A stretch of DNA of 64,000 bases from a virus: positions 124,001 through 188,000 of IMG/VR virus record IMGVR_UViG_3300048121_001678. The stretch is one strand, 5' to 3'. The notes beneath the pieces are model-generated. The model saw only the letters and a program-made list of their open reading frames with translations, did no database searches and was not told where the DNA came from. Below are positions 4,387-53,585 of the stretch, one piece after another (within the stretch, counting starts at the first letter, position 1; every line of letters begins with the position of its first letter). Position numbers and translations under genes: made by a program.

Positions 4387-7300
4387 AATATTTCTTGGTT
4401 AAGTATAAATTTATCAATATATTTGTTCATCGCAGATTTACCCGACCTAAGACCAAAATAAAAATGATAGGGTGCACCAACTAACAACTTATCTCTATAT
4501 TTTCCTTGACTATTATACGTAATATTAGTACCAGTTAATTTTGAATTATATATAAATCCTGGTTTTTCACTAGTTGGTGTCTGTATTGAAGATGGAAACG
4601 TATGTGGGTTAGTTAATCTATCAATAGATTGGTAGTTTACCGTATATATACTACTTGTAGTATTTTTATATGACCAATCATTATCCTCATCTCCAAAAAT
4701 AACACCGTTATTTTTAACCGTCCATGGGTGGAACGGTATTTCTTGGTCTTTAAAACCATAGTAATTAAATAACGGACTAGACACTTGATTGTCTCTAAAT
4801 GTTACTCTACCTGGTGTTATTAAGTCTCTATCAATAGTATTTCCCTCAAAGAATATCCCAATATTTGGGTCGTTTGAATTCACATCGTAATATATTGCAT
4901 CTCCAGAGTAATTATTACCTAAGAAAGGTGTAACACCAAATTCTGAGTTAATACTAATTAATTGGGATAAATCACCGTCTAATCTTTGGTTTTCTCTACT
5001 GAATAATTTTCTTATTGATGCATTACCAAGACCAGTTATTTGACCAAGCCAGGTAGTGTTTGATAGTCTACTTATAATAAAAACTTGTAATAAATCTGAG
5101 GTATCTTTATAGGACGTCGAACTAACACTATCAATAATATACCCCTGATAGTCATCATTAAAACATATCTCCTGTAAAAATTCGTCTCTAGGTCCCAAAT
5201 CCATAATAGTCGTAGGGTTACCTAACATCACATTATTTTGACCAGGGTAAGTATTACCGTTATTTTTAAGTGGCGGTAATTTACCTGTGAAACTACCATT
5301 GTTAAATGGTGATGCTCTGTAGAAAAATGAATTATTTATTTCTTGGTACGAAATCGTGTCTTTACAATAATCATAATCTGGTGATGTTAAGAATTTTGTA
5401 TCGTTAATATCATTACTATAAACATCTTGTTTTTGAAAAGAATACATATATAATGTACCGTTTACCCAGTTATTTACAAATGTTAATGACATTACATTAC
5501 GGCATATACCAAACATCATTCTAAATCTAGCCTTCCACTCAGTAAAGTTACCAATATCTCTACCAATCGAGAAATATGGTTTCTGTAATAAAGTATAACA
5601 CCCATTCTTAACTAATGTTGGATTAGTGTTACTCGGACAATTTGGTATAACTATTATGGTATTATTTGGACCCGGTTGGTAACATTCTAGTGGTACCATA
5701 TTTGCACATGAAAAAGAATCCGTAACACTATTGATTGATGCATTATTGTTAAACTCATCATCTAAAGATTCCGCACCATCACTAGTATCAAAACCATTTT
5801 CACTTAACGATTCACCGCCGTCAGCGTCAACTTTAAATACCGCAAAATCTCTATTCAAGTGAAAAGCCATACTATTATGGTTACTAATACCAATAGTCTC
5901 ATTATCCGATGTCGGTAAATTATCACTCCTAATAATTAATTTTGGATTTGGACCACTAATATTTACATTTATATTACCGTATTTTGGTGAAATAGCATTC
6001 CCTTGTGGACTTGCAGCCGGTCCATTGAATCCAGGCGATACTAATAGTGTACCACCATTTACTATGTTTTGACTAACATTAACTGTGGGATTAGAAGAAG
6101 CAAATAACCTAATTTTATTTATATTATCATTTGATGTTACAACATTACCCGCAGATGAGGTGGCGTAAGTACTTAGATTCCAGGTTCCGTTAAAATTCTC
6201 GCCTAATGACGAATAATATTTTATCTTATTTGACGTTACCGTAGAATATGCAGATGGGTCAACCGCAAAATTATAAGGTTCGTGATAAAGTTTTTGGTTT
6301 GGGTCTGTGTATGATATTGTATGAGATGTATTACTATATCTGTTACTCGTAATTTCTTGAATGGGGACATTCATATAAAAGTCACCACTCACTACTTCAG
6401 TACCATAACCTTGACCAGATAATTTTGATAAATCATATTTAATATTTTGTTTATCTGTCCAAACATCAACACCCCTAACCATAATAACCAATTTAAAATT
6501 ATTTGTTAGGTTAGAACCCATCAAGGTAAATGGGTTACCCACCACATAACCTACACTATTATTATCCGGATTAAAATAAGGTATTTCAGATTGAGGAAGA
6601 TTAAAATGTCGATTTATTATACCACCATTTGTGTTTTGTATATCAGTAAATGTTTTAGTAGTGATGACCTGAAAATACTCAACACCTGTCTTAAATTCAT
6701 ATTCTTTTTCAGTTGTTGACGCACTTACGGCAACTGTTGCGTTGGCTAGTCCACCATTTTCATTAATATAGTTAATAGTTTTTGTGGCGGTTAACATCGA
6801 TGTTCCTGTAATTGATTGAGAACCAAATTGATTTATTGGGTTTGTACTTCCACTATAATTTGTGTCATTTATATCACCTACATCGTTGAATGTGACGATA
6901 TCTCCCTGATTGAATGAACCGTTAGACACTAACATCATAACAACATTATCTGTATATTCTGGTCCCCCATTAACTTCAGTTTTAATTATATTTTGACCAT
7001 TAGTCGTATTATATGTCGAATTAAAGTATCTTGACCTAACATTCATAAGATTCATTGACTGAGCAACTGTCGCCTGACTTGTCAAAAAATATTGTGAGGG
7101 GAGTGTTGGAAATGTTAGGTCCAAACCAGTATAGTCTCTAGTTATTGGTAATCCGTAATGTGGTGAATTTAAATCTGCATATCCAGCAAGCCCATATCTA
7201 AAACCGAATAAATTAGCCTGATATTTTTCATTTTTCTTACTTTGACTACCTGAATAATTATCTGGGTCCATACCAACAGGTTTTTCATTAGCTGGGTCAC

Positions 7301-36939: not shown

Positions 36940-39900
36940 TTAGATATCTTCGAAAGATGCTCCTGTTGGAGTTATCAAGAATTCAATATCGATGAATTCA
37001 AGTGCTCTCGTTGGTTTAAGATAAATCTTACCCGTTAACGTGTTATTATCCAAATCTTCAGGTGTGTTTTCTACAACCACACGGAAGTCAATAAGACCTC
37101 TATCTCTTCTAATTGAGTCTAAGATTGGATTAACCGCATCTAAGAAGTCTTGTCTTACTTGGTCATCATTCTGTTCGAACAATAATCTTACCGCCACCGC
37201 AGAAATCAATTTACGTGCTTGTAACAATAATCTTCTTACGTTAATTCTATCAAGTGCAGATTCTCTAAGTTGTAGAGTTTTATTACCCCAAATTACGGTA
37301 CCGACATCAGAGAAGGTTGCAATTGGGTTTAATCTACCTTGATATAGTGTATCTCTATCTTCTTGTGTTAGCTTCTTACGTGCTTTAACAGAATTAACTA
37401 AACCTCTTGTGTAACCCGCAGTTGCGAACCAAGGGAAAGCTACGTTATCCGTTAACGCCAAGTTTTTAACTACCTCAGATGTTGGTGGAATATAAACTTG
37501 TGTGTTATTTACACCATCTCTTGTTAAAATCCATGGGTAATAAGTTGCAGTGTAGTTAGAATCAATATCTGATTCCTCTAAATTGTCAACCGCTTCATCA
37601 GGATAGATAAAGTCCGTATCAAATGACGATGTGTTAGGTACAAACATATTGTAATCAGGTGTTGTACAGATGTAGATAGAATCTGCTCTATCTGTTTCAA
37701 TCATATCAATTGCATCCTCAACTAAGTTTGAATGATTAGTATAATCAATACCTGGTGTTACAAAAATATTAATGTTTACCGCTTCAGGGTTTTCAAAAGT
37801 TTTCTGACCCATTAAGTAAGCGTAGTAATCAGTATTTGCCCAATCAGTTGAATCTTCACCTACTGTGATTTGTTTAAACTGTCCCCATCCTGATGCTGTT
37901 GGGAATGTAGGTGAAGGTGTAGCACCTAATAAGTAACCTGTACCACCTAATCTAAACGAGTCTTGATTAGAACGGAATTCTCTGTAAACATCCCATCCGT
38001 CAAAACCACCTTTAGCTAATAAAGTGAATTTACGTGCATTTAATTTATAGTAAGGATTAGTTTGGGATGTTGGTTCACTTGTGAAATCCGCGACACCGAC
38101 ATCAAACGCTGACGTACCTGAACTAATATATTGACCAGAAATTGTAACAACAGTTGCTCCTGAATCCATATGGAAACCTTTTGTAAGGTAAGACCAATCA
38201 CTACTTTCAGTTGCTGTTCCTAAGTTAGATGGGTTTTGTTTACCACCATAGTTAAAGAAGTCTGGGTCAATTCCAACAGTATTAGAAATACCTAAATAAG
38301 TTTTTCTCACTTTATCACCTGAACTTCTCGTAGCGTTACTACTTCCTGCGGTTGTACCGAATGGTGGGTTATAAATAACTTCTCCTGGTGTGTTATATTT
38401 TGTTTTAAATTCAACAAAAGGACTCCTTGCCCCTGAGTATTCTCTCATCACATAACCTTCAAATCCACATGGTAGTGCATCTACAGGTGCGTCTTCATCC
38501 ATATCTAACATTATGAATCTTGACTTAAGTTCAAACTCACCGTTAGAAGTACCAACTTTCTTAGCCACGTAACCATTCTCACCTGGACTCATAGTACAGT
38601 TTGTGAATTTTTCTAAAACTACCGGATTTGCATCTGTATCAAAATAATCACGAACGATTATATCAAATGTGTTATTTGAGAATGACATATTTGTCAATGA
38701 TACTTTTACTAAATTATTAGCCGCGTTACCATCAGATATTAAGATAAACCTAAATAACCTATCTACTTTACTACCTCTTAGTTCTGAAACCACAAACGGT
38801 GTTGATGGTGTTTGATACTGTTCTAAATACCAACCAATTGAAGTATTGCTAGCATTATCTTCTCTAGCTGAAGGTAAATTAATTAATTCACAATTAAGTC
38901 CACGAACTTTACCAAGTCTATATCCTTGTGTTAGTAATGAGTAATATGTTTCTTCCACAAATAATGGGAACTCACTACTTGTTTTACCGAAATTAGTAGA
39001 ACCAAAAACTTTAGTTAGGTAGTTTGTATCTGATAGTGAAAAAGATGTTTTAAATGTAAAAACATCACCACCCGACGTTAAACCTGATATTCCAAATGGT
39101 GAGTAAGGATTTTTCTGTACATCAGCGTATGAACCTGAACAATCCATTACTACATCAGTTAACCCTGTTACGTTGTAAACGGGTCCACCATCAGAGTTGT
39201 CATTAACACCTCTTGAACGAAGTGTTGCAACAACAACATCATTATATTCAGTGAATGCCGTTGCGTTGTATGTTAATACAGTACCACTAATCGTACCTGC
39301 AAAGACACCAGGACTTGTTTCTGTAAATGTTCCCGGTTCCATAACTGCATTAAATGACATACCCGAATAGTTGTCCCCTGAACCAGGTTCAAAACACCCG
39401 TAATACCAAGGGTCCATTAATGAGTCATCATAATCTGCAACTGAATTGTATAAACCATCAACACCTAAGTTATTAGTAACTGTTGTATAACCGTTACCAG
39501 TATACGCAGAATATACTGAATCTGTTAATACTCCCCATTGAGAAGAGGTTGTTGCTGATGACGGATTATCTAACATTAAATTGAGTACAAAAGTTTGTAA
39601 CTGACCTTTAATAGTTGCTGAATCACCGTTATATAAGGTAATGTCATCATCAAAGTAATCACTAATTGGTGATGGGATAGTACCAGTAAATTCAACAGTG
39701 TCTGTTGAACCTGTACTACCCGTAAATGTTACCGACCAAGTGGTTTCTACAGGTGTAGATAATGTTGCCGGGTCTAAGTTTGCTTGAGTCGTTATAGACC
39801 AAGACGGACCCGCATCATAACCTGATAAACCTAATACTCTGGTTACAAATAATTGATTTGATTGTTGTAAATATGCTTTCGCAATATATGCCGCTTCATA

Positions 39901-40122
39901 TTTTGGAATTTGTGTGTTCACAAATTTAGTTGGATTTGTTCCCCCGAAGTAGGATTGAAACTCGTCAAAGTTTGTGATAAAAATTGGTTCAAATGCGGGA
40001 CCTGTTAATGTCTCCCCTACTAAACCTAAAGTTGTTACCCCAACACTTTGTGCTACGAAACTCAAATCTCTTTCTGATGTATATACACCTGGTGAAACGA
40101 AGACTGTGTTTGAACTTGCCAT
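36940..40122 (-). CDS. gp18: Tail sheath protein (gp18-like)
   Basis: 1060 residues, much larger than T4 gp18 (659), owing to extra outer domains in the middle. The N-terminus (FVSPGVYTSERDLSFVAQSV, then GLVGETLTGPAFEP) and the C-terminal core (NPIATFSDVGTVIWGNKTLQ; later VRRLLLQARKLISAVAVRLL and EFIDIEFLITPTGASFED) are the conserved sheath handshake regions. The sheath contracts to drive the tube through the envelope. It is preceded by a TATTTATA box 32 bases upstream and followed by a GC-rich hairpin. Confident. Confidence 0.93.
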   Translation of the reverse strand: MASSNTVFVSPGVYTSERDLSFVAQSVGVTTLGLVGETLTGPAFEPIFITNFDEFQSYFGGTNPTKFVNTQIPKYEAAYIAKAYLQQSNQLFVTRVLGLSGYDAGPSWSITTQANLDPATLSTPVETTWSVTFTGSTGSTDTVEFTGTIPSPISDYFDDDITLYNGDSATIKGQLQTFVLNLMLDNPSSATTSSQWGVLTDSVYSAYTGNGYTTVTNNLGVDGLYNSVADYDDSLMDPWYYGCFEPGSGDNYSGMSFNAVMEPGTFTETSPGVFAGTISGTVLTYNATAFTEYNDVVVATLRSRGVNDNSDGGPVYNVTGLTDVVMDCSGSYADVQKNPYSPFGISGLTSGGDVFTFKTSFSLSDTNYLTKVFGSTNFGKTSSEFPLFVEETYYSLLTQGYRLGKVRGLNCELINLPSAREDNASNTSIGWYLEQYQTPSTPFVVSELRGSKVDRLFRFILISDGNAANNLVKVSLTNMSFSNNTFDIIVRDYFDTDANPVVLEKFTNCTMSPGENGYVAKKVGTSNGEFELKSRFIMLDMDEDAPVDALPCGFEGYVMREYSGARSPFVEFKTKYNTPGEVIYNPPFGTTAGSSNATRSSGDKVRKTYLGISNTVGIDPDFFNYGGKQNPSNLGTATESSDWSYLTKGFHMDSGATVVTISGQYISSGTSAFDVGVADFTSEPTSQTNPYYKLNARKFTLLAKGGFDGWDVYREFRSNQDSFRLGGTGYLLGATPSPTFPTASGWGQFKQITVGEDSTDWANTDYYAYLMGQKTFENPEAVNINIFVTPGIDYTNHSNLVEDAIDMIETDRADSIYICTTPDYNMFVPNTSSFDTDFIYPDEAVDNLEESDIDSNYTATYYPWILTRDGVNNTQVYIPPTSEVVKNLALTDNVAFPWFATAGYTRGLVNSVKARKKLTQEDRDTLYQGRLNPIATFSDVGTVIWGNKTLQLRESALDRINVRRLLLQARKLISAVAVRLLFEQNDDQVRQDFLDAVNPILDSIRRDRGLIDFRVVVENTPEDLDNNTLTGKIYLKPTRALEFIDIEFLITPTGASFEDI

Positions 40123-42010: not shown

Positions 42011-43765
42011 ATGCAAGAAAATAAAGTGGTATCAAAGATACCCGAAATTAAGGCAACACGTATTTTAGAAGAATACGAAGGGTACAACAATTATATACTT
42101 TTGTTGAAAAAAAAGATGCAAATAAAAAAGCATTTTAAAATGACCCGAGCACAGGCTGACTATATTATTGATTTTCATAAACGAACACCAAAAGTTGCAA
42201 GAAAGTGGGTTGAGTTAGATGAATACTTTGCTAATAAAATGAAAGAAGAAAAATTACTTTCTAAAAAACCAACTCAAATTTATGTTGAAAAAATATTGGT
42301 AGAGAAGGACAAATCATTTCATATTTATGGGAAATTATTTGAAACAGAGGAACTCCACGATTTTTGGTTACCCAAGGCAGCAGTAATACAAAATAAGGAA
42401 AGAAAGGTTGAGGTTGACTACACTAAATATTCAAACAGACCGCCACTAGAACATCAGAAACTTGCCGTCGAAAAACTAGTTGGTAACGATAAATACATTT
42501 TAGCAGATGACATGGGTCTTGGTAAGACGACCGCAACTGTAATGGCGGCATTAGAGTCAGGAGCAAAAAAAATATTAATCATATGTCCCGCATCTTTAAA
42601 AATCAATTGGCAAAGGGAAATTGAAAACTACACGGATAAGTCAATATCGATAGTAGAGGGTAAAAAATGGGAACCCGCCGATTTTATGATAATAAACTTC
42701 GACATATTAAAAAACTTTCACAACCTAAAAAAAATAAAAGAATCTGTTATCCTTAATTATGGTTTTGATTTAGTGGTAATAGATGAGGCACATTACATAC
42801 AAAACAAACAAGCACAGAGAACAAAAATAGCAAATGATATTTGTAAAAAGGTTGGTAAAGTATGGTTACTAACGGGAACACCAATGACCTCAAGACCAAT
42901 TAATTATTACAACCTACTGGACTTGGTCGACTCACCAGTCGCATATAATTGGATGGCATATGCAATTCGATATTGTGAGGGTTACCAATTTAGTGTGGGG
43001 AATAGAAGAGTGTGGAATGTTAATGGTGCATCAAATCTATTAGAACTTAGAGACAGAACAAAAACACACGTACTAAGAAGATTAAAAGAAGATATTTTAG
43101 ACTTACCTGAAAAAATATTAACACCTGTTTACCTCAGACTTAAATCTAAACAATACGAGGCAATGATGGGTGAATATTTTGAGTGGTATGATAATTCAGA
43201 GGAATCGTCCTCATTAACAGTGCAATTCTCAAAGCTGATGAAAGTAAGACAAATCATCGCAGAAGAAAAAGTTAGAAACACAATAGAAATTGCACAAAAC
43301 ATTATAGAACAAGGAAAAAAAGTTATTATTTTTACAAACTTTACAGATACATTAAATCAAATAAAAACTCATTTTGGTAAAGAGGCCGTCACTTTAGATG
43401 GACGAATGAGTAAACCTAACCGACAGCACTCCGTTGACGAGTTTCAAACAAACGACAAGGTCAAAGTATTTGTTGGTAATCTTAAAGCTGCGGGTGTTGG
43501 TATAACACTAACAGCCGCGGAAGCGGTTATCATGAACGACTTATCTTTTGTACCTTCGGACCATTCACAGGCCGAAGATAGGGCATATAGATATGGTCAA
43601 AAATCCAATGTGTCTGTCTTTTACCCAATTTTTGAAAATACTATTGAAGGTGCAATATATGATATCTTATCAAAAAAGAAAAATGTATTTGAAACAGTTA
43701 TGGGTGATAATGAAGATAAAGGGAATATTGTAGAAGAAATATTAAACTCAATCACAAGAAGATAG
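42011..43765 (+). CDS. SNF2-family helicase (annealing/branch-migration type)
   Basis: 584 residues. SNF2 motifs in order: Q/I region (HQKLAVEKL, then ILADDMGLGKTTATVMAALE), Ia ILIICPASLKINWQREIE, II VVIDEAHYIQN (DEAH), III LLTGTPMTSRP, V LKAAGVGITLTAAEAVI, VI DHSQAEDRAYRYGQ. The motif set and size resemble HARP/SMARCAL1-type annealing helicases. In T4-like phages, UvsW plays the fork-regression and Holliday-branch role; this gene may fill that job although it belongs to a different helicase branch. It heads the plus-strand block and is divergent from the neck gene. Confidence 0.88.
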   Translation: MQENKVVSKIPEIKATRILEEYEGYNNYILLLKKKMQIKKHFKMTRAQADYIIDFHKRTPKVARKWVELDEYFANKMKEEKLLSKKPTQIYVEKILVEKDKSFHIYGKLFETEELHDFWLPKAAVIQNKERKVEVDYTKYSNRPPLEHQKLAVEKLVGNDKYILADDMGLGKTTATVMAALESGAKKILIICPASLKINWQREIENYTDKSISIVEGKKWEPADFMIINFDILKNFHNLKKIKESVILNYGFDLVVIDEAHYIQNKQAQRTKIANDICKKVGKVWLLTGTPMTSRPINYYNLLDLVDSPVAYNWMAYAIRYCEGYQFSVGNRRVWNVNGASNLLELRDRTKTHVLRRLKEDILDLPEKILTPVYLRLKSKQYEAMMGEYFEWYDNSEESSSLTVQFSKLMKVRQIIAEEKVRNTIEIAQNIIEQGKKVIIFTNFTDTLNQIKTHFGKEAVTLDGRMSKPNRQHSVDEFQTNDKVKVFVGNLKAAGVGITLTAAEAVIMNDLSFVPSDHSQAEDRAYRYGQKSNVSVFYPIFENTIEGAIYDILSKKKNVFETVMGDNEDKGNIVEEILNSITRR

Positions 43766-43785
43766 TAATTTTTCCCATATGGTGT

Positions 43786-43793
43786 TATTTATA
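43786..43793 (+). promoter_or_regulatory. TATTTATA box upstream of the SOD-fusion gene
   Basis: Plus-strand GTGTTATTTATAAATAAAAC, 16 bases before the ATG at 43810, in the 44-base gap after the helicase gene. Places the SOD-fusion gene in the same expression class as virion genes. Confidence 0.5.
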
Positions 43794-43809
43794 AATAAAA
43801 CACAGACTT

Positions 43810-45348
43810 ATGGAGTTTAAAAAGAGCCAGGAAAAAATCCGTGAAATAGAAAACAAAATTACGGAATCAGAAAGAAAAGATATCGTTACCGAGAATAAAA
43901 AAGGTAGTAAAATGATAACGGCAATAAAGTTACCATATTCATATTCGTCGTTAAAACGATTCATAGATAAAGAAACAATGAATGTTCATTATAACCAACA
44001 CTATAAAGGTTATATTAGAAAACTTAACAAAGCGTTAGAAAATGTTAAAGATAAAGACCTTGATTTAGAGTCTTTAATAAAGGGTGTTTCAAGATATAGT
44101 AATACCATCAAAAATAATGCTGGTGGGGCATATAATCATGAGTTATTTTGGCAGATGTTATCACCAAAACAACAACAACCAAATGGTCCAGTATTAGATA
44201 AAATTAAGAAGAAGTTTAAAACATTTTCAAATTTTAAGAAAACATTTAAAAACAAAGCTTTAGGTCAATTTGGTTCAGGATGGGTATGGTTAGTACTCAC
44301 AAAAAGTGGTGACGTTAAAATTGTAACTACATCTAATCAAGATAATCCGTTAATGAACACTATTAAATTTGGTGGAATACCATTATTAGGTTTAGATTTA
44401 TGGGAACACGCATATTACTTAAAATACAAAAATAAAAGAAACGAATATATTGATAATTTCTTTACAGTTATTAATTGGTCTTTTGTTAATAGACAATTTG
44501 ATTCACATCAAAAGGGTAAACTTAACGAATCAAAAGTTGTAAAGAGCTTAATTAGTGAGGGTTTATCTAAAGGATGTTCACCACAACAGGTAAACACATA
44601 TAGAATGGTCTTTAACAGAAATCCGCAAGTTAAGAAAAAGTTTATGTACGCAATTATGGATATACTTAAAGAAGTTTATTCTGAATTTCATTACGAAAAA
44701 AATCAATACGCAGATGGACAAATGTCAGGAATATACGATTTTGAACAACCTGGTCGTTCAGTAATTAATAAATTAAACACTAACTACTCCGCATTTTGTA
44801 TTTTAGTTAATGACCTTAATGCAGTATTAAAACACTACGGGCAGAATCCATTAAATTTTGTAGGTGTTAATGATAAACAACAGTTGAGGGAGGTACAAAG
44901 AATGATAAAACTTATGGTTGAATTCAGATATCGTATTTTTAATCAAGAATCAGGAACATTCCAAAGCATTATGGCGTCATTAGACAAAACAAATAAATTT
45001 GGTGATGAAAGGGAAATAAAGGCAGTTGTTAATATGAAAGATATCTTTAACACTAAAAAAGTATTCAAAGTAGGTGAACTAGGTGGGAAAGATGATATGA
45101 TTGGAGGTATTGATGCGACAGTAGAAATAAATGGCGAAACTAAAACAATACAAATAAAACCATTTAATAATACTGAAGAAAGTGAAGGTAGAGTCACTGT
45201 ATTTGGTACAGGTAATGTTAAACCCTATAAAACCGACTATATGTGTTTTCATGATAACTCTAAAGGTACGTTAGTTTTTGAAAATAATGATACAAAAATT
45301 GTTAACGGTAGATACACTTTCCCTATCGATAGTTTAATAAAACAATAA
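43810..45348 (+). CDS. Fusion of a Mn-type superoxide dismutase domain with a PD-(D/E)XK nuclease-like domain
   Basis: 512 residues. Residues about 38-232 are a full Fe/Mn superoxide dismutase domain: LPYSYSSLKRFID, TMNVHYNQHYKGY with His60, GGAYNHELFW with His110, FGSGWVWLV, NQDNPLM with the Mn-type Gln177, and LGLDLWEHAYYLKY with Asp196 and His200. All four metal ligands are kept. A 35-residue charged N-terminus precedes it. Residues about 240-390 are helical and unassigned. Residues about 395-500 look like a PD-(D/E)XK-type core: acidic E400/E402 region, GGIDATVEI with Asp435, then TIQIKPF giving Gln448-x-Lys450. The gene lies between helicase and neck-protein genes behind a late-type box, so it may be a virion or packaging-associated protein. 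Catalysis by either domain is predicted, not shown. Confidence 0.8.
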   Translation: MEFKKSQEKIREIENKITESERKDIVTENKKGSKMITAIKLPYSYSSLKRFIDKETMNVHYNQHYKGYIRKLNKALENVKDKDLDLESLIKGVSRYSNTIKNNAGGAYNHELFWQMLSPKQQQPNGPVLDKIKKKFKTFSNFKKTFKNKALGQFGSGWVWLVLTKSGDVKIVTTSNQDNPLMNTIKFGGIPLLGLDLWEHAYYLKYKNKRNEYIDNFFTVINWSFVNRQFDSHQKGKLNESKVVKSLISEGLSKGCSPQQVNTYRMVFNRNPQVKKKFMYAIMDILKEVYSEFHYEKNQYADGQMSGIYDFEQPGRSVINKLNTNYSAFCILVNDLNAVLKHYGQNPLNFVGVNDKQQLREVQRMIKLMVEFRYRIFNQESGTFQSIMASLDKTNKFGDEREIKAVVNMKDIFNTKKVFKVGELGGKDDMIGGIDATVEINGETKTIQIKPFNNTEESEGRVTVFGTGNVKPYKTDYMCFHDNSKGTLVFENNDTKIVNGRYTFPIDSLIKQ

Positions 45349-45387: not shown

Positions 45388-46500
45388 ATGTCAATAATTT
45401 TAGAACCACAAAGAACCAAGCTATACACTAGAATTCGTCATCTTTTAGGTGCACCTTTAAGGGGTATTGAAATAGAAGATGAAATGATGGATTCATTATT
45501 GGAATTATCTATTGAAGATTACTCACAATATGTAAATGATTGGTTAATTGAATCACAATGGACATCACTATATGGTTTGAATCAGGATACTCAGTCCGTT
45601 GCCAAAGCATTAATAACACGTTCTTTAGATTGGGAAACACAGTACACTTACGCATATTCTAAAATTGTTGGTTTACAAGCGGGTGGTGATTCTGAATTAA
45701 AAAAGGACTATTTTGACCTTAAGGCTAACCAACAAATTTATGAAATACCTGCAGGTAGGGAAATAAATGAACTTTTATGGTTTACACGTGCCGAACTTGA
45801 TGCCGCTTTCTTTGACCCATTTATGGGTGGATTTGGTGGATTTGGTGGTATTGGTTTAGGTGGTGGTGCCGGTTTCTCACAAATGGGTGGTCAGGGCAAT
45901 TACTTTGTTTCACCAGGTTTTGACATCTTACTTAGAATGCAAGATATTAACATAAAAAGAAGACTTATAGGTGGAGAGCTAACTTATAGAATAACTGCAT
46001 TACCTGAGGGTAAAAAGGCTATACATCTTTATAATGTTCCTGGTGGTAAGTTTGATTTTGGTAACATGGCTAACAACAACTATAGAGTGTGGTATTGGTA
46101 TTATGAAACAGACGATAGAGAAAGTTGTTTAGCTAAAAATCCTGATATTGTTAGATTACCATCAGACGTTAATATGGAAAATTTAAATTGGGCGGAATTA
46201 AATTCACCCGCACAAACATGGGTTCGTAGATGGTTTACCGCATATGTTAAAGAGACACTGGGTCGAGTAAGAGGTAAATTTAGTGGTAACTTAAAAACAC
46301 CTGATTCAGAATTACAATTAGAATACGATTCTTTATTGAGTGAATCTAAAGATGAGAAGTCTAAACTAGAAGAAGAATTAAAAATGAGACTAGAAAGACT
46401 TCGTCCTGATAAAATGATGGAAGTTAAGGCCAATCAAGCAGAAAGTTTAAACAAATCACTACAATATAGAGCACTTCCTCGTCAAATCTATATAATATAA
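45388..46500 (+). CDS. Neck protein, gp13-like
   Basis: 370 residues (T4 gp13 is 309). The N-terminus (LYTRIRHLLGAPLRGIEIED, then a helical EMMDSLLELSIEDYSQYVND) follows the gp13/gp14 neck pattern R-I-x-x-x-L-G-A-P-x-x-x-V-E-I-x-D-x-x-x-D, and YFDLKANQQIYEIPAGREIN is the conserved Y-D-L-x-x-x-Q-x-Y-x-I/L-P segment. A Gly/Phe-rich loop (FMGGFGGFGGIGLGGGAGF) at about 145-165 is unusual. The C-terminus is a charged helix. The protein would sit between portal and tail. Last base of the stop is the first base of the next gene's ATG. Confidence 0.6.
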   Translation: MSIILEPQRTKLYTRIRHLLGAPLRGIEIEDEMMDSLLELSIEDYSQYVNDWLIESQWTSLYGLNQDTQSVAKALITRSLDWETQYTYAYSKIVGLQAGGDSELKKDYFDLKANQQIYEIPAGREINELLWFTRAELDAAFFDPFMGGFGGFGGIGLGGGAGFSQMGGQGNYFVSPGFDILLRMQDINIKRRLIGGELTYRITALPEGKKAIHLYNVPGGKFDFGNMANNNYRVWYWYYETDDRESCLAKNPDIVRLPSDVNMENLNWAELNSPAQTWVRRWFTAYVKETLGRVRGKFSGNLKTPDSELQLEYDSLLSESKDEKSKLEEELKMRLERLRPDKMMEVKANQAESLNKSLQYRALPRQIYII

Positions 46501-50231: not shown

Positions 50232-53200
50232 TTATAATGCCTGTGGTACAAAGTCGTAACTAATCGTTATATTGTTGTTACCAAGTGTGAACGACCTTGA
50301 AGCATTTCCAGGATTTATTCCACTATTTGCAGAAATCGATGATACACTTTGTCCTGTTACTGATGCGACACCTTGTGTTTCTCCGTATATCTGACATCCC
50401 GAACCTAACACACCTTGAGATTCAATGTAGAATAGGATTGTATCACCAGCTACCGCTTGGATTGAATCTGTTGAATCATTTCCACTACCAGTCGCTTGGT
50501 ATGAAGATTGTAACACTCCGTTCACATAAATAGAACCTGAACCTCTAGCACATGTCGCACTTGTGAAATTGAGATTAATTGTTCTCAGTGTTACCGAGGT
50601 TGACGGTGTTGGTGTTGGTGTCTTAGTTGGTGTACGTGTTGGTGTTGCCGACCTCGTTACTGAAGGTGTTGGTGTTGGTGAAGCAGGTGCCGGAGTACCT
50701 GTTGGTGTTCTCGTTGGTGTACTCGTTGGAGTCGGTGTTGGTAGTGCACAGAATGAACAAGTGTCCCCAACGGCAGTAATTGTATACGGCGGTGGTTCAG
50801 GGCTTTCATCAATAGCCACAATCTGCCAACAACCCGTTGTCTCTTTAACAGAACAGTAATCACCGATTGACGGTACTGATGAGAAACCAGAACCTAATAA
50901 TGCACTTGCTTGTGTTCCACCTGGTTGACAATTACCGTCAACGTAATTTATTGACTGTAATATGAATTTATATTCTACACATGGATGCTCTTGTAAACAT
51001 GATGTACATCCTTCATAGAACGAACCTCCTGGTGACCATATACCCTCTTGATTCCTAAATGTTCCGTCAATTATACCTAAATCGGTTACGTCGTCACCAC
51101 CATAGCTCTGTCCAATAAACTTAACACAAGTATCAAGAATACCTGTTTGTTCTTCTAAGTATAACGACACGTCACTACTCTCTTCGAGTGCGGATAAAAT
51201 GGAACCTGTCTGACTTTGATTTAAGGATATTCTATATACTAGTGCTGGTGTATTACAACATTCTGAGAAGTACATTGGGTAATATACCGTAGATGGTGTT
51301 ACTGATGGAGTAACAGACGGAGTAACACTAGTAGATGGTGTTATCGTTGGCTGTGGAGTTTGTGTTGCCTGTGGAGTATTAGATGGTGTAACCGTTTGTG
51401 TAGGTGCCGGTGTTTGTGTTGCCTGTGCCGTTGGAGTAACTGTTGAAGTTGCCGTAGGTTCAGGTGTTGATGTCGGAGCCGGTGTACCTGTTGGTTCAGG
51501 TGTTGACGTAGGTGCCGGTGTACCTGTTGGTTCAGGTGTTGACGTAGGAGTTACACTTGAAGTTTGAGTTGGTGTATTAGTCGGTGTTTCTGTAGGTGTT
51601 GGGGTTACACTTGCAGTTGGAGTTACACTCGCTGTTGGAGTAGGACTCGATGTTGGAGTATTAGTTGGTGTATATGTTGGCGACGGTGTCACTGAACTTG
51701 TAGGGGTTACAGACGATGTCGGTGTAACCGTTGATGTCGGAGTGTTACTTGGTGTTACTGTATTAGTAGGTGTTGGTGACTGAGTAGGTGTGTTTGTCGG
51801 TGTTCTTGATAGAGAAACCGTTGGAGTCACTGTACTTGTTGAAGTAACGGTTGGAGTAACTGTCGGTGTTACTGATGACGTTACTGAAGGCGTTGGTGTT
51901 ACTGAGGCAGTTACTGTTGCGGTAACTGTAGGTGTTACGGTCGATGTAGCCGTCGGTGTGAATGTTGACGTTGGTGTTACTGTCGATTGAGGGGTAACAG
52001 AAGGTGTTACTGAAGAACTTGGAGTTACTGTAGGTGTTACCGTTGATGTGTTTGTTGGTGTAACGGAAGGTGTTACTGAAATTGTTGGTGTAACTGTAGA
52101 TGTGTTTGTTGGTGTTATTGTTTGAGTAGGGTCAGGTGTTGAACTTACTCCTGGCGTTTGAGATACTGATGCAGTTATCGATGGTGTCGGTGTAACATCT
52201 GCGGTTGGAGTCACACTCGATGTTGGTGTAACTGGTGGTGTTGAAGTTTTAGTCGGCGTTGGTGTTGAAGTAGATGTTGATACAGGTGTTGCTGTTGTTG
52301 TTGGTGTTACTGTAGATGCTGGTGTTGATGTCGGTGCAGGTGTGGATGTTGTTGTTGGCGTAGAAGTACCACCTGGTGTTGACGTAGGTTGAGGTGTAGA
52401 TGTCGGTGCCGGTGTACCTGTTGGTTCAGGTGTTGTAGTTGCCTCAGGTGTGGATGTCGGTTCAGGTGTTGTAGTTGCCTCAGGTGTTGTAGTCGCCTCA
52501 GGAGTAACTGTAGACGCTGGTGTACCTGTTGGTGTTGGAGTAGCACTTGAACCTGGTGTATTTGATACTGAAACCGTTGGTGTTACAGTTGGTGACGGAG
52601 TTGCTGTCACTGATTGTGTTGGAGTGTTTGTAGGTGTAGACTCAGGAGTCAATGTAGGTTGTGCTGTCGAAGTAGGTGTTGGAGTCGATGTACCACCTGG
52701 TGTTTGTGTAGGGTTAGGTGTTAATGTAGCTTGTGGTGTTTGACTTACACTAGCCGTAACTGATGGTGTCGGAGTTGCCGTACCACCTGGTGTTTGTGTA
52801 GGAGTATTAGTTGGTGTTGCAGTTGCCGTGTTAGACGGTGTAACTGAACTACTTGGCGTATTTGTTGGGGTAACATCAGGTGTTGATGAAATGGTAGGGG
52901 TTGGTGTTGCACTTGCACCTGGAGTATCAGATACTGAAACTGAAGGTGTCGGTGTACTTGTTGTTGTTGATGTTGGAGTAGATACCGGTGTACCCGTTGG
53001 GGTTGGCGTCCCTGTAGACTGTGGAGTACTTGTTGGAGTTGCAGTTGTTGTAGAAGTTGGTGTTGAAACAGGTGTACCTGTTGGAGTTGCCGTCGTTGTC
53101 GATGTCGGTGTTGTTGTTGGTAACGGTGTACGAGTTGGAGTAGTCGTTGTGGTTGGCTCTGGTGTTGAAGTAACAGTAGCCGTAATAGTTGCTGTTGGCG

Positions 53201-53585
53201 TTGAAGTGGATTGTGGAGTACTTGTTGGTGTTCTTGTTGGAGAAACCGTTTGAGTAATCGTTGCCGTCATCGTAGGTGTTACCGTAGATGTTATCGTTGC
53301 AGTGATAGATGGTGTTACCGATGGTGTATTTGACGGGGTAATTGTTGGGGTAACTGTCTGTGTTTGTGTTGGGGTTGGTGTTGGATGACCAATTACATAA
53401 GTGTAAGATGCTTCGTATGTTTCAGAATAGATTGTGTAGGTACCGTAAAAATAATCAGTAACTAAATCAGCCGGCATAGTAACAACACCAAAGTCCGTTA
53501 CAGTCGAACCTGTATCCGCAGTAAAAGTAATGTGAACACTTTCACCTACTAAATTATCACTCAAAAATCTAATTCCATCTGCCAT
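50232..53585 (-). CDS. Mucin-like Thr/Pro/Ser-rich fibre or adhesin with Cys-rich domain
   Basis: 1117 residues. Residues 1-63 are a small beta domain ([20 protein letters not shown]). Residues about 64-766 are an almost pure Thr/Pro/Ser/Val stalk built from T-P-T, S-T-P-x-P-T and V-T-P units. Residues about 767-945 are a folded domain with 11 cysteines ([36 protein letters not shown]). A second short Pro/Thr linker (about 946-1000) leads to a beta-rich C-terminus (about 1001-1117). The stalk would be extended and, in the host cell, a possible target for O-glycosylation, which is common in Bacteroidota; glycosylation is speculation. Flanked by fibre genes. No enzyme motif seen. Confidence 0.75.
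51290..53395 (-). repeat. Degenerate tandem repeats coding the Thr/Pro stalk
   Basis: About 2.1 kb of imperfect short repeats of the type GGTGTTNNNGTTGGNGT on the plus strand, coding T-P-T and S-T-P units on the minus strand. The plus strand reads through in several frames as Gly/Val-rich shadow ORFs because the repeat contains few stop triplets. A second short block lies at 50585-50745. Confidence 0.85.

Follow-up and report, generated by a model that had tools for sequence, protein, structure and literature searches.

A conserved fusion of a Mn-type superoxide dismutase with a predicted PD-(D/E)XK nuclease in uncultivated contractile-tailed phages

The window, that is, the whole stretch of 64,000 nucleotides that was analyzed, belongs to a virus record of 297,164 bp (IMG/VR record IMGVR_UViG_3300048121_001678, positions 124,001 to 188,000) and holds a gene in which a superoxide dismutase (SOD) is followed in frame by a helical domain and a nuclease-like domain. 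The gene, its parts and its immediate neighbors are arranged as follows, in window coordinates.

42011-43765, + strand: SNF2-type DNA helicase (phrog_62), the conserved upstream neighbor
43784-43799, + strand: T4-late-like promoter box TTATTTATAAATAAA, about 24 bases 5' of the ATG
43810-45348, + strand: whole SOD-nuclease fusion gene, 512 aa, a single uninterrupted ORF from ATG to TAA
43810-43920, + strand: N-terminal leader, residues 1-37, helical and weakly conserved
43921-44505, + strand: Mn-type superoxide dismutase, residues 38-232, assigned by Pfam, NCBIfam, solved SODs and invariant sites
44506-44961, + strand: helical middle domain, residues 233-384, with the signature G-R-S-x-I-N-K-L-N-T-N-Y
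44962-45345, + strand: PD-(D/E)XK-type nuclease domain, residues 385-512, with E402, D429, D435 and Q448-x-K450 invariant
45388-46500, + strand: neck/head-tail adaptor (phrog_211, E 2e-10), the conserved downstream neighbor

The gene order SNF2 helicase, (SOD)nuclease, neck, 110-aa gene and DNA polymerase is conserved among the relatives. Both flanking genes are adjacent at 184 of 192 loci, overlapping pieces of one contig being counted apart; a contig end cuts six more loci and two were not resolved. The position between helicase and neck genes given in the preliminary description is therefore correct, with phrog_62 upstream and phrog_211 downstream, and the late-type box that it reported was also found: TATTTATA lies 24 bases upstream of the ATG and is kept in most homologues sampled, diverse relatives included. 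In the window, boxes of the TATTTAT type also stand before the neck, sheath and tube genes, several baseplate genes and a few replication genes. The tail sheath (36940-40122), at 1060 aa, is roughly double the best-matching PHROG model in length, and TPTPT-type threonine/proline repeats make up most of a 1117-aa protein encoded at 50232-53585. Among named phages, the closest DNA polymerases (24-27% identical) come from those of Salinibacter and cyanobacteria, and the neck protein had no match. The carriers form a widespread clade of uncultivated phages of ~300 kb with contractile tails; the analysis found no cultured member. In two relatives the SNF2-type helicase (L181:1877-4723 and L183:2602-5490) carries intein-like inserts at two different sites, giving 948 and 962 aa against 584; the insert of L183 follows DDMGLGK and holds a LAGLIDADG-like motif.

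The SOD half is recognized by both Pfam domains of the family, PF02777 at residues 125-228 (E 6.5e-39) and PF00081 at residues 39-118 (E 2.2e-20), and both exceed the gathering score (132.5 and 73.3 bits against 20.9 and 27). The NCBIfam Mn-SOD equivalog model matches with E 3e-50, at 171 of 363 bits and hence below its curated cut-off, and solved SOD structures match residues 40-232 by sequence with E 3e-55. The metal ligands H60, H110, D196 and H200 are invariant in all 92 distinct fused sequences and in the only split one, as are the Mn-type pair Q177/G106, in which G106 occupies the alternative (Fe-type) Gln position, and the residues H64, Y68, W158, W198, E199 and Y203. The ligands and Gln177 had been read as intact from a single sequence; their retention in 92/92 fused sequences extends that reading to the family. 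Across 371 pairs (Nei-Gojobori), the SOD has a median dN/dS of 0.086, the middle domain 0.194 and the nuclease 0.187; the pairs share branches, so that these values compare domains and are not a statistical test. The strongest purifying selection is on the SOD part, which argues that it is kept as an enzyme, and the invariant active sites together with the low dN/dS rule out a decayed relic, in agreement with the preliminary description. Its residues make continued superoxide dismutation most likely, by a dimer or a larger oligomer as is typical of the family, and a preference for Mn is suggested by Q177/G106 and other site residues. Mn-type SOD enzymes can use iron too.

No second SOD was found anywhere in the 297,164-bp record. 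The nearest cellular SODs found, from Sphingobacterium and Clostridioides among others, are 45-48% identical, and the SOD tree is consistent with a single acquisition. Several of the SOD matches in phage records (H1-H9 and H11) look like host DNA, being short unannotated contigs or, in H11, having chromosomal neighbors such as degS and tRNA genes.

In the C-terminal half, E402, D429, D435, Q448 and K450 are invariant in 106/106 sequences, those without SOD included. The PD-(D/E)XK-like arrangement of D435 and Q448-x-K450 that was first proposed therefore holds across the family; of the acidic pair E400/E402 placed before it, E402 stands, whereas E400 is variable (E in only 15/65). An AlphaFold2 model of this half, built from an alignment of 37 relatives, has a mean pLDDT of 85 and predicts a helical domain, a long helix bearing E402 and then a sheet, D435 and Q448-x-K450 being located at neighboring strands: one strand follows D435, and Q448 and K450 lie on another. 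The predicted active-site residues thus fall on helix 1 and the central strands, as in the core PD-(D/E)XK fold, and E402, D435, Q448 and K450 make up the acid...D...(D/E/Q)xK motif. In Foldseek searches with this model the best solved match was I-Ssp6803I (E 4e-3, probability 0.98), followed by the Hjc resolvases of Sulfolobus and Archaeoglobus; the E-values are modest, no solved match falling below 1e-3. Several viral PD(D/E)XK or Holliday-resolvase entries were among the structure matches in BFVD. The likeness to resolvases would accordingly be a resemblance at the level of the predicted fold only.

Profile searches had been expected to recognize each half; they did so for the SOD (PF00081, PF02777) but not for the nuclease, which matched no family in Pfam or NCBIfam and gave only weak matches in PHROGs. 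The weak Pfam and PHROG matches to the C-terminus were scattered and were taken as chance. Sequence searches of the PDB returned nothing meaningful for this half, no cellular relatives of the nuclease were found in a scan of 84,980 cellular genomes, and the C-terminal half was not found in named phages. It is a predicted nuclease family without relatives in Pfam, among named PHROGs or among PDB sequences.

We scanned IMG/VR with the C-terminal half alone, with the whole protein and with progressively more distant alignments; each scan gave up to 408 confirmed stretches, of which the best 80 at most were taken. Among the matches listed, 92 of 106 distinct aligned sequences have the fused architecture, and their overall identity with the protein of the window falls as low as about 50%. 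A local artefact or assembly join is ruled out by these 92 distinct fused sequences, and separate genes in all relatives, which would have pointed to such an artefact, were not seen: there is one split lineage among many fused. The fusion of a complete Mn-type SOD to a nuclease-like domain reported in the preliminary description is thus genuine, conserved and encoded by one intact 512-aa ORF.

The SOD is nevertheless not a constant part of the protein. Among the best homologues listed in one scan, 30 of 79 lack the SOD from the frame and keep the rest of the protein and its place in the genome, and a further scan returned many more of this kind. The leader of many SOD-less relatives is similar to residues 1-37, and the middle domain and the nuclease were always found joined. 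By structure, both of these domains also occur in a 1113-aa protein of an uncultured marine phage (UniProt A0A8D9CCA0, 23% identity). In a group of 309-aa relatives (L134-L142) the leader continues into INEMKKIEIEKLKSIISEG, whose EMKKIEIEKL corresponds to EMKKIGIEKL at the start of the fused SOD; this sequence marks the group as carrying a deletion relic of the SOD. In the tree of the C-terminal half the group is nested within fused relatives, and a second SOD-less clade (L163-L183) is also nested among fused sequences, so that the tree needs two changes of state. The tree is rooted at its midpoint, and a root in the larger SOD-less clade would make that clade possibly primitively SOD-less; for this reason the L134 event is a secure loss, by which the SOD was lost at least once, and the loss in L163-L183 is only likely. 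Four records of 178-318 kb whose nuclease gene lacks the SOD were found to hold none elsewhere. In L181, a member of this second clade and the one split found among the matches listed, the SOD (4766-5491, 241 aa) and the nuclease (5557-6393) are separate neighboring genes. The nuclease is therefore the core, always kept, and the SOD is an optional module, separated from it or absent in some relatives. Since it was lost without replacement, it is not needed for the role of the nuclease. Of the two-function unit first envisaged, the fusion stands (92 sequences); the unity does not, the SOD being split off or lost in relatives.

We propose, with a probability of about one in two, that the protein is a late DNA-processing nuclease core, acting at the packaging stage, with an accessory, dispensable and most likely active SOD. 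The core, expressed late, would pair the helical domain with a nuclease belonging to the Hjc/I-Ssp6803I-like structural group of PD-(D/E)XK enzymes. Working with the adjacent SNF2-type helicase, the nuclease would most likely resolve or trim branched phage DNA around packaging and head completion, a role comparable to that of T4 gp49 (resolvase) or gp4 (head-completion nuclease). In T4, branched DNA that stalls at the packaging portal is released by the gp49 resolvase (PMC9958956); packaging also depends on the DNase of gp4, and resolvases of the RuvC or endonuclease VII type are common in jumbo phages (PMC7824862). The resemblance of the fold to resolvases and the neighboring SNF2-type helicase favor branch resolution, and the adjoining neck gene and the absence of gp4 favor end processing. 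HMM searches of the genome of the fusion gene gave no match to RuvC, RusA, Hjc (PF01870 included) or endonuclease VII; the same search recovered T4 endonuclease VII as a positive control, the search for endonuclease I having none, and such an absence does not prove that the known resolvases are lacking. In the ancestor of the sampled clade, a Mn-type SOD would have been fused between the N-terminal leader and the nuclease core. There it may have provided accessory removal of superoxide near the protein or the particle, useful in most lineages and dispensable; judged by its sequence, it probably removes superoxide in or near DNA processing or simply rides along. The sequences show the structure of the gene, its homology, the invariant sites, the selection, the synteny, and the loss and the split; the enzymatic activities, the oligomerization, the packaging-stage role and the benefit of the SOD are points that we infer.

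A tentative reading that keeps considerable weight is that the fusion mainly secures expression of an auxiliary SOD along with a late gene, SOD and nuclease being mechanistically unlinked. The SOD is dispensable, a separate adjacent gene in L181 and lost in others, and other phages have standalone SODs, all of which agrees with this. However, the covalent fusion is kept down to about 50% identity with one split among the matches listed, and this retention speaks against mere co-expression, which would not need a fusion.

It is also possible, though rather unlikely, that the nuclease trims or seals the end of the packaged DNA at the portal or neck as an analogue of gp4, and that within the virion the SOD protects the DNA or the particle. 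The gene lies directly 5' of the neck gene with a late box of its own, and gp4 is likewise a PD-(D/E)XK nuclease (PMC1189080). No match to gp4 (phrog_218) was found in the genome of the fusion gene or in four of five relatives searched, and the lone match, in the fifth, is false, as it falls inside an intein-like insert splitting a dUTPase gene. This dUTPase-like gene, in L194, is interrupted by an apparent intein and then a homing-type nuclease, which produces the false match. Protection within the particle would agree with phage PA5oct, whose standalone SOD-like protein (L306:965-1513), annotated as 'hypothetical', bears an ESI-MS/MS note, SOD peptides reportedly having been detected for this jumbo phage. 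Against the gp4 analogy, a relation to gp4 is undetectable, homology being ruled out by profile comparison (hhalign, 0.2% probability), the fold matches favor Hjc and I-Ssp6803I, and relatives without the SOD occupy the same position, which makes the SOD unnecessary for such a role.

A true bifunctional protein of the packaging or neck stage, in which an active Mn-SOD tethered to the nuclease would clear superoxide at the DNA or particle being finished, seems to us doubtful; if true, it would be a site-directed antioxidant of the phage assembly machine.

The use of the SOD fold purely as an idle dimerization or structural scaffold for the nuclease, raised in the preliminary description, is very unlikely. 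The SOD precedes the nuclease core in the fusion, and such a use would be in line with the oligomeric state of both enzyme kinds, dimeric for Hjc-type PD-(D/E)XK resolvases and dimeric or tetrameric for Mn-SODs. But the catalytic residues, including Y68, Q177 and W158, which a scaffold would not obviously need, are all invariant (92/92), the dN/dS of the SOD is the lowest, half that of the nuclease, and SOD-less nucleases persist. A homing endonuclease of the mobile-element type is scarcely credible for the C-terminal domain, even though the best solved fold match, I-Ssp6803I, is one, given a genomic position fixed in nearly all relatives read, no copies seen at varied sites, no intron or intein around the gene, purifying selection and a middle domain that is always joined.

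The protein joins two known enzyme kinds in a new combination. No description of a SOD-nuclease fusion was found in literature searches that covered few subscription journals, which agrees with the initial statement that no described protein of this kind was known. Within an abundant group of phages, the fused, split, relic and lost forms make up a natural variant set of a SOD linked to a viral DNA-processing enzyme, and the SOD-less and split relatives make the gain of a virus from its own SOD directly testable. In the C-terminal nuclease family, this phage group may have its missing resolvase or head-completion nuclease.

Compared with known systems, the phage protein shares with the Mn/Fe SOD family (PF00081 and PF02777) two complete domains, the ligands and the Mn-type second-sphere residues; unlike that family, it carries a C-terminal nuclease and is phage-encoded. 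With the Hjc and I-Ssp6803I-type PD-(D/E)XK nucleases it shares the predicted fold and an E-D-(Q)xK site in the expected order; it differs from them by an extra helical domain and strands, by QxK in place of ExK and by the fused SOD, and significant sequence matches were absent in PDB searches. T4 gp4 (phrog_218) has in common with it the nuclease superfamily and a site near morphogenesis genes; no sequence relation was detected, the best fold matches reported for gp4 are TnsA and T7 endonuclease I (PMC1189080) against Hjc and I-Ssp6803I for the fusion protein, and the latter adds a SOD and a helical domain. The standalone SODs of PA5oct, Vibrio phage 2.275.O and MW462191 are likewise phage-encoded, but unfused; those of PA5oct and the Vibrio phage lie far off in the SOD tree, and that of MW462191 falls among cellular SODs. 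The same architecture was recovered by structure search of BFVD in a 501-aa protein of an uncultured Caudovirales phage (UniProt A0A6J5L953, 46% identity over 478 columns), whose database name is 'superoxide dismutase' only, so that the fusion type is already deposited.
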